From Poseidonibacter lekithochrous (GTDB lineage Bacteria > Campylobacterota > Campylobacteria > Campylobacterales > Arcobacteraceae): 64,000 bases of DNA. The stretch is from positions 2,976,001 through 3,040,000 of the forward strand of contig NZ_CP054052.1 in assembly GCF_013283835.1 (NCBI RefSeq), given 5' to 3'. Below the pieces are notes generated by a model. It saw only the letters and a list, made by a program, of their open reading frames with translations. It was not told the origin of the DNA and did not search any database. Position 1 is the first letter of the stretch; every line of letters begins with the position of its first letter. Positions 5,175 to 11,768 of the stretch are shown here, one piece after another. The translations under genes and the position numbers were made by a program.

Positions 5175-5612
5175 TTAATAAGCAATTATTCCAACATAAC
5201 CAGAAACTTGTCTCTCAATAATCTCAACAATTCCAGCTTGTACATATTCAATATCATCTATAAAATCAGACTCACTCCATTTCATAGTTTCCATTGTATT
5301 TCTACATCCAACAAACTCAACATCATATTCCATTAAAGACTGTATTCTTGTTAATGTTTTTGCATCATAATCATTTTTTAATGCTCGCATTCCATTACCA
5401 TAAGCAATAACTACTACTTTTAAAGACTCACTTGGATACTCCTTTAAAATATTGTATATTGAACTTAAGTTATGATTTACTTTTGTAACTTCTGAATCAT
5501 ATAATTGAATCACTAACTTTCTTGGATTATCAAAAGTTGGTTGAGGATCACTAAATGTCGACTCTGCATAACTAAAAACTGCAATTAATAAAAATAAAAC
5601 TATTTTTTTCAA
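5175..5612 (-). CDS. Periplasmic DsrE/DsrF-like protein
   Basis: A 145-residue protein with a short signal peptide ending near YAES (residues 14-18), followed by a DsrE-like fold: a beta strand KLVIQLY at 32-38, VVVIAYGNG at 66-74 and the conserved cysteine C103 in VGCRNTM. In DsrE/TusD relatives the cysteine at this position carries persulfide sulfur, so a periplasmic sulfur-carrier role is plausible. Export is unusual for the best-known DsrE proteins but common for this subfamily. It lies 10 bases after the MOSC gene and 9 before the hydrolase gene, within the sox operon. Confidence 0.75.
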   Translation of the reverse strand: MKKIVLFLLIAVFSYAESTFSDPQPTFDNPRKLVIQLYDSEVTKVNHNLSSIYNILKEYPSESLKVVVIAYGNGMRALKNDYDAKTLTRIQSLMEYDVEFVGCRNTMETMKWSESDFIDDIEYVQAGIVEIIERQVSGYVGIIAY

Positions 5613-5622
5613 ACTATATCCT

Positions 5623-6102
5623 TTATGAAGCGTATTTTTTATTATCTTTCCATTCTTTTAGAATTTCTATTTCCATATCTTTTAGAATAGAACCACCTTC
5701 TATAATTTTACAATATAAACCTCTGCAATCTTTAACTAAAGTAGGTAAATCTTTTGAGAATACAGCTAAGTGATTACAAATAGTACATTTTTGTGTTATT
5801 TCTAAAACAACACTACCTATTTTGATAATTGAACCTATTTCATAATTATGTGGATTAATATCCAATAGTATATTTTCACCTAAACTTCCAAGTTCTAACT
5901 CTACCCCATTTTCTAATGCAATATCATAAGCAATTTTTCCAACAAGCATTACTGCTTTTTCATCATCTTTTCCAGCAAACTTATCAAACTCTATACCAAA
6001 TCCATTAATAACATTTAGTTCACTAACTATTGGTCTTGGTAATCCACTTTGACCTTTTTTTGCACTAAATATTTCTATTGTTTTTCCTATATTACTTTTC
6101 AT
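5623..6102 (-). CDS. MOSC domain protein
   Basis: A 159-residue protein covering a single MOSC (molybdenum cofactor sulfurase C-terminal) domain. Recognisable motifs are GFGIEFDKFAG at residues 34-44, GSLGENI at 72-78, and the C106-T-I-C109 pair at the position of the conserved MOSC cysteine. MOSC proteins bind molybdenum cofactor or move sulfur to it. SoxC in this operon is a molybdoenzyme, so a role in maturing its cofactor is a reasonable inference. There is no signal peptide, so it should be cytoplasmic. Its start overlaps the 3' end of the upstream cytochrome-thioredoxin gene by 11 bases, showing translational coupling. Confidence 0.8.
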   Translation of the reverse strand: MKSNIGKTIEIFSAKKGQSGLPRPIVSELNVINGFGIEFDKFAGKDDEKAVMLVGKIAYDIALENGVELELGSLGENILLDINPHNYEIGSIIKIGSVVLEITQKCTICNHLAVFSKDLPTLVKDCRGLYCKIIEGGSILKDMEIEILKEWKDNKKYAS

Positions 6103-6898
6103 CGATATTCTCCTGTAAAATAGTTATAAAATCATCTTTTAACCAAGCTCCTGGGTATATATTCTCAAGTTCTTTATTCTTAGAGACAAAAAAGAAAGTA
6201 GGAGTCATTCCTTTGAAATGCTTTTTTAAATTAAAAGGTAAGTTTATTTCATCAACATCCACTTTTAAAAATATAAAATCTTTATTCATTCTTTTTTGAA
6301 TCTCTTTTAAACTCAATACATCTCTTTCCATCTTCTTACAGAAATAACAACTCTTAGAGGTAGCATATACAATAAGTTTTTTATTAGATTTTTTAGCTTC
6401 ATCTAAAATCTTATTTTCATCATAAAATTTATTTAATTCTGTGATCTTAGGTTTACTCTTAGATAATCTATTCTTTTTATATTCCATAAAAAAATGTGTT
6501 AGATTTAAAGTCTCATCATCTGCAATTTTAATAGCTTCTTTTTTTTCATAATACTTAATTATTATTGGATCACATATAGTATTAGAAATATCTGGTTCTT
6601 CTAAATAATCTTTTAGATACTCTTCAATTTCTATTTCTTGCATCTCTTTATCTTCTGGATCTCCAATTCTTTTTGGTCCATCAACAATTGCATAAGCCAA
6701 CATATTTACAGTTGGTACTGTTAATTTGTATATTTTATTATCTTGTTCAAAGAAATTAATTTTTAAATTTTTTATTGAAATATATTTTCCATGACATGAA
6801 GAACATTTGTTTTCAAATATTTTCTTGCCTTCTAAATAAGATGCGTTTATATGTGTTAGAAATAATAAAAGAGTAAGTAATAATCCCTTTTTAAACAT
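6092..6898 (-). CDS. soxW: Cytochrome c-thioredoxin fusion, SoxW-like
   Basis: A 268-residue exported protein (signal peptide MFKKGLLLTLLLFLTHINA). The N-terminal part is a small cytochrome c domain with one heme site, C32-S-S-C35-H36. The C-terminal part (about residues 160-260) is a thioredoxin fold with the redox pair C184-Y-F-C187 and the cis-proline motif T-P at about 232-233. Such a protein could pass electrons between a periplasmic dithiol and heme, for example to reduce or recycle the SoxY cysteine, which is the role proposed for SoxW thioredoxins. It sits after soxB and before the MOSC gene. The symbol is by context and domain only; the heme fusion is not part of classical SoxW. Confidence 0.7.
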   Translation of the reverse strand: MFKKGLLLTLLLFLTHINASYLEGKKIFENKCSSCHGKYISIKNLKINFFEQDNKIYKLTVPTVNMLAYAIVDGPKRIGDPEDKEMQEIEIEEYLKDYLEEPDISNTICDPIIIKYYEKKEAIKIADDETLNLTHFFMEYKKNRLSKSKPKITELNKFYDENKILDEAKKSNKKLIVYATSKSCYFCKKMERDVLSLKEIQKRMNKDFIFLKVDVDEINLPFNLKKHFKGMTPTFFFVSKNKELENIYPGAWLKDDFITILQENIDEK

Positions 6899-6995: not shown

Positions 6996-8759
6996 CTAAA
7001 CGATTCCAGGGTTACCTTTTACTCCGATAATATCAGGAGAATCGATTTTTAAATTTTTAACATGTTTTACTGATTGTAAATAAGTTTCAACAGTTTCCCA
7101 TACAGGTTCACCTGGCGATTGTGAGCCAACAGTTGACCACCCAGCTACTTTATAGTTTTTAGAAGCTTCTAATTTAGCACCATTTCTAGTTAACTGAATA
7201 TCAGAAATTCTTTTACCCATTTGAGCAGTTGGATTAATTTTGTATGAAATACCACCTGTTCTTACCATATCTCCACCTTGTTGGTAGAATGGATCTTCAT
7301 TGAATAAGTTATCAGCAACATCTTCTAAGATATCTTTGATTCCTTGTCCTGAGATTTCTCTCATATATGTTTCAGGATAAGTCATTGCTGTTTGAGTCAT
7401 TAAATCATCAAAAGTAATATCTTGTCCAGGCATTACAGAAGTTCCCCATCTAAATCCAGGAGAAAGTGAAATTTCAGCATCTTTTACATCAACTAAAGCA
7501 TCACAAATAATCTGATCCCAAGAACCATTAAAGTTACCTCTTCTGAATAAAGTTTCATCAGTTGTAGCAATTGGTCTCATTAAATCTTTAATATAAGGAG
7601 CTCTTACATCTTCGATATATTTTTTCATCTCTTTATCTTCAGGAATTAAATCTGAGAAGATTGGAAGAAGTGTAAATTTAAAGTCTTTGATTTTTCCATT
7701 TTGAATATCTAAATCAAGAACATTTAAGAACTTACCGTTTGATCCAGCATTACAAACATAAGTTGTACCACCAGCATTTTTAACAGGATAAGCTTCTGGA
7801 ACACCATCATGAGTATGTCCACCCATAAAGAAGTCAATACCAGTAACAACCTCAGCCATTTTTTTATCTACATCGTAACCATTATGAGATAAAACAATAA
7901 TTGCATCAGGTTTTTCTTCTTCTTTGATAGTATCAACTAACTCTTGCATCTCTTCTTCTTTAATTCCAAAAGTCCAATCTGGAATAAATCTTTGAGGATT
8001 TGCAATAGTAGTATAAGGGAAAGCTTGACCAATAACAGCAACTCTAGCATTACCCATTTTCTTAATTGTATATGGTTTAAATGCTAATCCTGAATCTTCA
8101 TCAAAGGCTTCAGCACCTTCCATTAAAGCATCTTCTTTAACAAATACATTTTGTGCTAAGAATTCTGCATCAAGTTCTTTTACATTAGCTAGAATTTCTT
8201 CAGCTTTATATGTAAATTCCCAGTGACCAACAGCAATATCAACACCTAACTTATTCATAGCTCCAACCATATCTTTACCTCTAGTGTAAAGAGCAGTTGC
8301 ACTTCCTTGCCAAGTATCTCCACCATCAAGAAGTAGAGTTTTATCTTTTCCAAAGTTATTTCTTAAGTAGTCAACTACAGTCTTAATTTGTGCGAATCCA
8401 CCAACTCTTCCCATAGCTTTTGCGTGTTTTTCAAAGTTTACACAAGAATATGCATACTCTAATCTTTTATCACCTTTGATACCATAATAATCTAATAGTT
8501 TTTCACCAACAATATGTGGTGGCTTACCATAGTTACCGTGGAAACCTAAGTTTACACTTGGTTCTCTAAAATACACAGGCATTAACTGTGCATGAGAATC
8601 TGTCATGTGTAAAAATCTTGCATTACCAAAATTCTTTAATTTGTAGTAATCTTCTAATTTACCTGAATTAGTCATTCTTGTATGAGAATTAGCAAATACA
8701 GGAGCAGCACCAAGTACTGCCATCATGTATACAAATTCTCTTCTACTTAATTTACTCAT
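6996..8759 (-). CDS. soxB: SoxB, sulfate thiol esterase
   Basis: SoxB hydrolyses the sulfate group from SoxY-bound S-sulfonate in the periplasmic Sox cycle and is a dimanganese enzyme of the 5'-nucleotidase/metallophosphatase family. The 587-residue protein starts with a Tat signal (SRREFVYMMAV, RR at 6-7). It shows the metal motifs in order: LHMTDSHAQL, LLDGGDTWQGS, GHWEFTY, VLSHNGYD and GGHTHDG. The GHWEFT form, instead of the GNHE of nucleotidases, is typical of SoxB. It follows the rhodanese gene by 29 bases and precedes the SoxW-like gene. Confidence 0.97.
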   Translation of the reverse strand: MSKLSRREFVYMMAVLGAAPVFANSHTRMTNSGKLEDYYKLKNFGNARFLHMTDSHAQLMPVYFREPSVNLGFHGNYGKPPHIVGEKLLDYYGIKGDKRLEYAYSCVNFEKHAKAMGRVGGFAQIKTVVDYLRNNFGKDKTLLLDGGDTWQGSATALYTRGKDMVGAMNKLGVDIAVGHWEFTYKAEEILANVKELDAEFLAQNVFVKEDALMEGAEAFDEDSGLAFKPYTIKKMGNARVAVIGQAFPYTTIANPQRFIPDWTFGIKEEEMQELVDTIKEEEKPDAIIVLSHNGYDVDKKMAEVVTGIDFFMGGHTHDGVPEAYPVKNAGGTTYVCNAGSNGKFLNVLDLDIQNGKIKDFKFTLLPIFSDLIPEDKEMKKYIEDVRAPYIKDLMRPIATTDETLFRRGNFNGSWDQIICDALVDVKDAEISLSPGFRWGTSVMPGQDITFDDLMTQTAMTYPETYMREISGQGIKDILEDVADNLFNEDPFYQQGGDMVRTGGISYKINPTAQMGKRISDIQLTRNGAKLEASKNYKVAGWSTVGSQSPGEPVWETVETYLQSVKHVKNLKIDSPDIIGVKGNPGIV

Positions 8760-9555: not shown

Positions 9556-9975
9556 TTAGTATTTATACCCATCACCCGGAACTGCCAAGCTCCATGCTGT
9601 TTTTGCTTCTTCATTTTGTTGTAATGCTCTAATTGCGAAAGAACAAGCTCTCCATGCAGCATAATCAACAGTAACTGTTCCAGTTTTTTTCTTCTTTTTA
9701 TTTAAGATATCAACTGTTTTTGAACCTGTTTTTAAAGCAGAATTAACTCCTGAAATATATTGAGAAGTTTTCATACCTAATCTCATAAACTCAAGACCTT
9801 GCTTCTTAGCCATTGCATTGTATTTATCAGCAGTAGCAATTACATTTTTAATTCCATTTGCTTTTACATCACAAGTTTTTTTAACATCAAGTTTTGACAC
9901 TTCAGATGCATTAAGAAAACTAGATAATGAAAATGCTACAGTAGCCGCTAATGTTACTTTTAATATTTTTTTCAT
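9556..9975 (-). CDS. Unknown exported protein with a conserved-looking cysteine pair, between soxA and rhodanese
   Basis: A 139-residue protein I do not recognise. It has a clear signal peptide (MKKILKVTLAATVAFSLSSFLNA, cleavage near residue 23) and a mature domain predicted mainly helical, with only two cysteines, C35 (KKTCDVKANG) and C111 (WRACSFAIRA), that could form a disulfide. A basic patch KKKKK is at about residues 93-97. The start at 9975 is preferred to an ATG two codons upstream because GGGG then stands six bases away. It follows soxA by 13 bases and ends at a terminator, so it is the last gene of the upper sox segment. A helper role for SoxAX or SoxYZ is inferred from position only. 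Confidence 0.7.
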   Translation of the reverse strand: MKKILKVTLAATVAFSLSSFLNASEVSKLDVKKTCDVKANGIKNVIATADKYNAMAKKQGLEFMRLGMKTSQYISGVNSALKTGSKTVDILNKKKKKTGTVTVDYAAWRACSFAIRALQQNEEAKTAWSLAVPGDGYKY

Positions 9976-9988
9976 AATCATCCCCTAT

Positions 9989-11318: not shown

Positions 11319-11768
11319 TCAACCACCACATCCACCGATAGTTACTTTTACAAGTTTAGAAGCAGAATATAATTTTCCACCCTCTTCTACTACAGCAGTA
11401 ACTGTACCAGTTTTTGCCATTTTGATTCTTACAGAGTAATCAATAATTCCACCTGCAGGAACTGTAAATACAGCAACTGTAGCTTCTGGATTTGCATCTT
11501 GGAAAATTGCCACTTTTGAACCAGCTAATTTAGAAGATACAGTTAAAGGAATAACCGCACCATTTTCAGCAATATCTGGAGCTTTTAATTTTACTTTTCC
11601 GTTTGTAGTAGATGTAGTTCCGAAAATTTCTTTCATTCCTTCATCAACTTTTGTTGCAGTCCATGCTTTTGGTTTAGTTTCTCTAAAGTTAACAGCACTT
11701 AATGTAGATGGAGCCATTGATACAGCTAATGCACCTAGACCTAGTCCTAAAAAATTTCTTCTATTCAT
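11319..11768 (-). CDS. soxY: SoxY, sulfur substrate carrier
   Basis: SoxY carries the sulfur substrate covalently on a C-terminal cysteine during periplasmic oxidation. The 149-residue protein has an N-terminal Tat-type signal (NRRNFLGLGLGALAVS) and ends in the hallmark flexible arm VTIGGCGG, with the carrier cysteine at residue 147. It is separated from soxX by 17 bases and from soxZ by 67 bases. Confidence 0.97.
   Translation of the reverse strand: MNRRNFLGLGLGALAVSMAPSTLSAVNFRETKPKAWTATKVDEGMKEIFGTTSTTNGKVKLKAPDIAENGAVIPLTVSSKLAGSKVAIFQDANPEATVAVFTVPAGGIIDYSVRIKMAKTGTVTAVVEEGGKLYSASKLVKVTIGGCGG

Follow-up and report, generated by a model that had tools for sequence, protein, structure and literature searches.

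The sox operon of Poseidonibacter lekithochrous encodes a polypeptide in which a cytochrome c domain is joined to a thioredoxin domain, and this fusion is a conserved Campylobacterales family located in the sox operons of Arcobacter-like bacteria and of many relatives. Judged by its operon position, the protein is most likely a SoxW/SoxS-type keeper of the SoxYZ cysteine. We favor, at a probability of roughly 0.45, a DsbD-fed periplasmic reductase that would keep the cysteine of SoxY (or of the neighboring DsrE-like protein) usable and that would carry an accessory heme, probably ligated by His and Lys.

The fusion gene and its family

The host genome is one contig of 3.57 Mb (C1), and the window, by which we mean the whole 64-kb stretch that was analyzed, corresponds to C1:2976001-3040000. 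On its minus strand the gene order is soxC-soxD-soxX-soxY-soxZ-soxA-(SAXB-like)-rhodanese-soxB-[fusion]-MOSC-DsrE-like-hydrolase (Table 1). The fusion frame begins with ATG and specifies 268 aa, with cysteines at residues 32, 35, 109, 184 and 187; its product is probably exported to the periplasm. The closest named relative found lies on an Arcobacter sp. contig (71% identity in the fusion protein). Relatives of the SoxAX-binding-protein-like gene are present in many sox clusters of the same type.

Table 1. Features of the fusion gene and of its surroundings in the window.
Feature	Position	Strand	Basis
Cytochrome c-thioredoxin fusion, SoxW position	6092..6898	-	ORF, Pfam, family comparison
Signal-peptide-like N-terminus, residues 1-20	6839..6898	-	by eye
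Heme (cytochrome c) domain, residues 21-146	6461..6838	-	profile comparison with Met-type relatives and cytochrome c6
CSSCH heme-attachment motif, residues 32-36	6791..6805	-	C32, C35 and H36 in 112/112 heme-domain proteins
Lys120, class I distal-ligand (Met) position	6539..6541	-	clade alignment and c6 MP motif alignment
Thioredoxin domain, residues 158-263	6110..6427	-	PF13098 E 2.5e-12; fold comparison
CYFC redox motif, residues 184-187	6338..6349	-	C184 and C187 in 66/66 thioredoxin-bearing rows
soxB, upstream neighbor of the fusion	6996..8759	-	TIGR04486, 843.6 bits
MOSC-domain protein, overlaps the fusion 3' end by 11 bases	5623..6102	-	PF03473
DsrE-like protein, signal-like N-terminus (by eye)	5175..5612	-	PF02635 E 6.7e-6
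soxY, likely thiol substrate (inferred); tail reads GGCGG	11319..11768	-	TIGR04488, 155.7 bits
SoxAX-binding-protein-like gene, between soxA and the rhodanese gene	9556-9981	-	NF052674, 18.4 bits against a cut-off of 95

Searching the order gave matches in 227/298 genomes, among them many thioredoxin-only proteins of the wider superfamily, the top matches being full length; the search of the taxonomic family at E 1e-15 gave matches in 70/104 genomes, some covering one domain only. After exclusion of phmmer matches not exceeding 60 bits, and of copies that share their last 100 residues exactly, 118 distinct proteins were kept, comprising 101 fused proteins, 11 stand-alone cytochromes and 6 thioredoxin-only proteins. 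The fused proteins are called Lys-type, Thr-type or Met-type by the residue at the distal-ligand site of the heme; the window protein belongs to a clade of 69, and the other 32 are Met-type. The claim of the original prediction that one polypeptide carries both a CxxCH domain and a thioredoxin domain is thus borne out by the open reading frame, the motifs, Pfam and the conserved relatives, and the domain-architecture search that it proposed yields a conserved family in Campylobacterales.

Gene neighborhoods, counted within the DNA fetched around each locus, place 93 of the 101 fused proteins next to sox or dsrE genes. For the window clade, soxB or soxA lies within 3 kb of 67/68 Lys-type fusions and of the single Thr-type, which, together with soxB directly upstream in the window, confirms the predicted placement at the sox-operon thioredoxin (SoxW) position; dsrE and relatives of the MOSC gene are each found within 3 kb of 63/68 Lys-type fusions. 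Among Met-type fusions, dsrE is within 3 kb in 25/32 (with overlapping gene ends in 19) and soxB or soxA in 19/32, and 7/32 have neither dsrE nor a sox gene near. Since a two-domain protein with the same neighbors recurs in dozens of genomes, the fusion is not a matter of chance.

Several loci deserve separate mention. The sole Lys-type fusion without sox linkage (L145) sits between TRAP-transporter-like and Maf-like genes (by eye), and the alignment of its loop is uncertain. L077, L078 and L079 carry the fused gene as tandem pairs ahead of dsrE. In L078 this unit of two fused genes and dsrE occurs in three copies whose fused proteins are identical, either through an assembly artefact or through a real amplification. 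No relative of the fusion turned up in viral contigs, and a plasmid collection yielded a single match, in a record of Sulfurovum mangrovi (30.9% identity over 85%).

The thioredoxin domain stands without the heme domain in six proteins, whose genes have soxB, MOSC and dsrE nearby. Sox genes are near all six and near 0/11 of the stand-alone cytochromes. Genus codes g7 and g4 each contain both fused and thioredoxin-only members, and five of the thioredoxin-only rows need three changes on a quick tree of 121 columns, the starred branches forcing only one. The presence of such relatives at the same operon place indicates that the heme is not indispensable there, which weakens models that make the dithiol dependent on the heme. 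The original prediction held that functional independence of the domains in homologues would speak against it: the six thioredoxin-only proteins and the 11 stand-alone heme proteins go part of the way toward such independence. We rejected the idea that the stand-alone cytochromes are truncated fusions, as translation of six loci past their stops gave no thioredoxin-like sequence by eye. One stand-alone Met-type cytochrome of about 160 aa with an MPSMKGK motif is encoded in the host genome itself (L038:4036-4620, C1 near 19.0-19.6 kb); the family has comparable proteins in further genomes, and the DNA examined around these cytochromes contains no sox gene.

The two domains and the distal-ligand site

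Pfam cytochrome models match the fusion only within residues 20-47, all below cut-off; the heme domain is unproven by Pfam alone but becomes convincing once its relatives are aligned. All three of C32, C35 and H36 occur in 69/69 proteins of the window clade, 32/32 of the other clade and 11/11 stand-alone cytochromes, a count that partly follows from the definition of the heme-domain classes by C32 and H36. The remaining 6 rows, which fall in none of these classes, measure 131-158 aa and are without the whole domain; no motif-less heme domain was seen among the 118 proteins. A Met-type heme profile built from 11/11 stand-alone and 16/32 fused proteins matched PDB chains of cytochrome c6, with a best whole-sequence E of 1.6e-6 and weak single stretches (0.0091 at best, for the top chain). 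Both the CxxCH and the MP motifs align, the Met-type stretch tmpslkgkiseee being placed against aMPafggrlsdee of c6, whose Met we take to be the axial heme ligand. The Lys-type profile, built from the window protein and 23/68 others, aligned with the Met-type profile at a probability of 100 over 117 columns (hhalign). Against cytochrome chains it matched mainly at its N-terminus, the best E of 1.2e-4 belonging to a three-copy c555 construct with insignificant single stretches and the next being 0.011. An AlphaFold model from six sequences gave pLDDT below 50 for residues 10-157 and no usable heme domain, so that pocket geometry and the heme-dithiol distance are not obtainable from it.

The thioredoxin domain is recognized by Pfam above curated cut-offs (PF13098, see Table 1; PF13899, E 1.4e-10). 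A profile of 40 such domains (the window protein, 17/68 other Lys-type or Thr-type, 6 thioredoxin-only and 16/32 Met-type) was closest to the Thermus thermophilus thioredoxin 2lst (E 1.1e-12) and to 2kuc, a putative isomerase from Bacteroides; C-domains of DsbD followed with E from 3e-5. Compared by fold, the modeled residues 154-268 score equally well, at Z 12-13, against structures of isomerase-like proteins, DsbD-gamma and thioredoxins; the comparison with 2fwe reached Z 12.9 over 109 residues with an rmsd of 2.8, many thioredoxins tying within Z 1.

At the axial column, Met occupies 43/43 sequences outside the window clade (32 Met-type fused and 11 stand-alone), whereas the window clade has Lys in 68/69 and Thr in 1/69. 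The original prediction makes no mention of this Lys. Column 120 has an entropy of 0.11 bit, while columns 118, 119 and 121-124 range from 1.6 to 2.8; among representatives below 70% identity, 22/23 keep Lys120, and no other lysine of the heme domain is as well conserved. In a quick thioredoxin tree (66 rows, 121 columns), the 32 Met-type rows fall on one side with an SH-aLRT support of 98, and 28 Lys-type rows, the Thr-type and five thioredoxin-only rows on the other. A heme-domain tree of 85/112 rows, with the trait columns left out, requires two residue changes, of which one leads to Thr. The switch between Met and Lys occurred a single time and was maintained afterwards. The heme-domain tree is unrooted, and the direction from Met to Lys is assumed on the ground that class I cytochromes normally have Met; a single change also means that its match with the type of Sox cluster is one coincidence. 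By eye, soxX and soxD of the same operon keep their MP motifs, so Lys120 does not reflect a general drift of the operon's cytochromes.

The only fusion of the window clade that is without Lys120 is L050:8579-9496 (-), the same protein as L014, which reads ETTHPR; here the His beside the axial site might be the ligand. Cys109 was considered as a heme ligand and set aside: kept in 63/69 of the window clade, 22/32 Met-type and 11/11 stand-alone proteins, it does not track the Lys change.

From this conservation, the heme of the window clade is probably His/Lys-ligated. By analogy, such a heme would probably have a potential some hundreds of mV below that of a His/Met heme, nearer to thiol/disulfide couples. 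The precedent is heme 2 of Allochromatium vinosum TsdA, for which a His/Lys form reduced at about -129 mV and a His/Met form oxidized at about +260 mV are described, Met displacing Lys upon reduction (PMC6879331). The authors doubt that the Lys serves simply to lower the potential; in Campylobacter jejuni TsdA N254K, with a Lys beside the heme 2 Met, His/Lys ligation was found in only about 36% of that heme, which tells us that the pocket matters and not the residue alone (PMC6879331). A comparable Lys/Met switch with the nearby Met66 or Met123 is possible in the fusion.

The main rival to Lys ligation, as read from the alignment, is a moved Met ligand. Met66 would have replaced Met120, Lys120 would be no ligand, and the protein would be an ordinary high-potential cytochrome fused to a thioredoxin. 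Met66 is found in 64/69 of the window clade, against Gln or Glu in 43/43 others, and 68/69 have Met66 or Met123. We nevertheless consider this reading doubtful: Met66 is lost in 5/69 and Met123 in 27/69, compared with one loss of Lys120, and it is Lys120 that sits where the class I ligand aligns.

Source of reductant and proposed function

For the carrier cysteine of SoxYZ to stay usable, a Sox system must be supplied with reductant. The original prediction had stated that no soxV/ccdA gene is present here, and this holds: the single PF02683 match in the genome is DsbD, outside the window at C1:3359059, and the other PF13386 match, a 247-aa frame at C1:2041738, likewise lies outside. These genome searches with PF02683 and PF13386 found no dedicated SoxV/CcdA partner gene in the sox cluster. 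SoxV has also been reported absent in A. butzleri RM4018 (PMC2147049), so that an alternative upkeep of the SoxYZ cysteine is at issue. The local absence of soxV does not mean that a membrane reductant is absent, since DsbD is encoded in the genome: it is full length (590 aa), lies 376 kb from the fusion and adjoins a small WCPPC thioredoxin. The genome also encodes a 929-aa ResB-matching frame for cytochrome c assembly; with the two, both a reductant path and a heme-loading path exist. Co-occurrence of DsbD was discarded as evidence for a DsbD partner, for PF02683 is found in 290/298 genomes of the order and discriminates nothing. Three of the seven non-sox fused paralogues (L087, L095 and L096) sit shortly downstream of dsbD; they carry the redox motif CRGC, and the intervening gene in L096 is CvfB-like by Pfam. 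Their position suggests a DsbD-linked role outside Sox.

In the DsbD-fed reductase that we favor, the thioredoxin part would reduce wrong disulfides on the sulfur-carrier cysteine of SoxYZ, or would act on the adjoining DsrE-like protein. Electrons would come through the general DsbD and not through a dedicated SoxV. The class I-like c-type heme domain would be an accessory redox partner of the dithiol, or a gate to it, and not an ordinary respiratory carrier; Lys at the distal Met site would give a lower-potential heme, nearer to thiol/disulfide couples. We infer for the fusion its heme loading, ligation and potential, its substrate, its electron donor and the direction of the electrons, and its export.

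Dithiol couples lie at roughly -120 to -270 mV. A heme of low potential would lie closer to them and would be a poor electron sink, which speaks against a dithiol-to-heme direction but for some redox dialogue between heme and dithiol. When a dithiol trades single electrons with one heme, it passes through an unfavorable radical, which is chemically awkward, and a gate or persulfide role is for this reason as likely as a relay. We treat as no better than tentative the more specific proposal that the Lys-for-Met swap in the Arcobacter-type sox lineage, bringing the potential down by some 300-400 mV to within reach of thiol/disulfide couples, would have made the protein a periplasmic single-chain heme-dithiol relay or switch, through which the Sox cytochromes would be coupled to the thiol state of SoxYZ (or of DsrE).

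The original prediction had envisaged a direct path, in which the fused heme oxidizes the thioredoxin dithiol and passes the electrons to Sox cytochromes or an oxidase, a thiol oxidase independent of any membrane reductant. The conserved heme site and the soxX, soxA and soxD cytochromes of the same operon fit this scheme. A review reports that none of the Arcobacter genomes it analyzed (4 strains) has classical DsbA and DsbB, which may create a need for some other oxidant; yet the same 4 strains encode DsbC and DsbD, a reducing path (PMC4460558). Thioredoxin-only versions at the same operon place and the radical chemistry described above argue further against it, as does Lys ligation, which would lower the potential and make the heme a worse sink (by extension from PMC6879331). 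On balance the direct path is unlikely.

Also improbable, in our view, is a reading in which the heme domain serves docking, assembly or folding, or is being lost, and the thioredoxin alone functions in Sox. The six thioredoxin-only relatives at the same place, the three changes needed by five of them on the quick tree and the mixed membership of g7 and g4 would all suit such a role, but CxxCH and Lys120 are strongly conserved in the fused proteins that remain. Least probable is a sulfur-transfer partnership in which the thioredoxin would take the SoxY persulfide and the heme would oxidize or gate it for the DsrE-like protein: the dsrE linkage of both types, with its 19 overlapping Met-type pairs, agrees with it, but DsrE may be merely a co-regulated gene, and the 7/32 Met-type fusions away from dsrE and sox genes weigh against it.

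For the DsbD-fed reductase, the Lys at the methionine site may retune the heme of the window clade, if Lys-ligated. The conserved fusion, the clade-specific Met/Lys difference and the natural thioredoxin-only versions together make a ready-made comparison for heme-dithiol electron exchange.

Comparison with known systems

SoxW is the periplasmic thioredoxin partner of SoxV/CcdA in alphaproteobacterial sox clusters. Like it, the fusion has a thioredoxin fold with CxxC and is encoded in a sox operon; compared by description and not by sequence, it differs in its added cytochrome c domain, in having no adjoining soxV and in its DsbD-gamma-like thioredoxin domain. The name is used more widely: in T. 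thermophilus the thioredoxin gene called SoxW, TTHA1422, heads the sox genes (PMC10318464), and in Sulfurovum indicum the gene beside dsrE is named soxW, its group rising 2.17-3.83-fold on thiosulfate (PMC10045233). From gene order only, the S. indicum soxW may be a Met-type member; DsrE and SoxW of that organism are called "respectively" periplasmic and cytoplasmic thioredoxins, against the view that the protein is exported (PMC10045233). Our search of the open literature on SoxW or such fusions returned no paper recognizable as describing the present one.

SoxS of Paracoccus pantotrophus and others is a periplasmic thiol-disulfide oxidoreductase that is said to reduce false mixed disulfides on SoxYZ, the role that operon position suggests for the fusion; the available part of the source mentions no heme for SoxS (PMC10451225). 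No entry named SoxS appeared among 60 of the 66 PDB matches listed for the thioredoxin profile, an absence that proves nothing. With the C-terminal (gamma) domain of DsbD, the thioredoxin part shares its fold and the Pfam families PF13098 and PF13899; unlike DsbD, the fusion has no transmembrane part and carries an N-terminal heme domain.

The heme part resembles class I, c6-like cytochromes c in its CxxCH near the N-terminus and in the alignment of Met-type relatives at CxxCH and MP, but at about 120 residues it is longer than c6, and in the window clade Lys and not Met occupies the distal-ligand site before the last helix. To our knowledge, TsdA is without a thioredoxin domain. TsdA of A. 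vinosum, compared here by heme ligation only, differs in having two hemes; it shows that a heme c with His/Lys ligation does occur among proteins of sulfur oxidation (PMC6879331).
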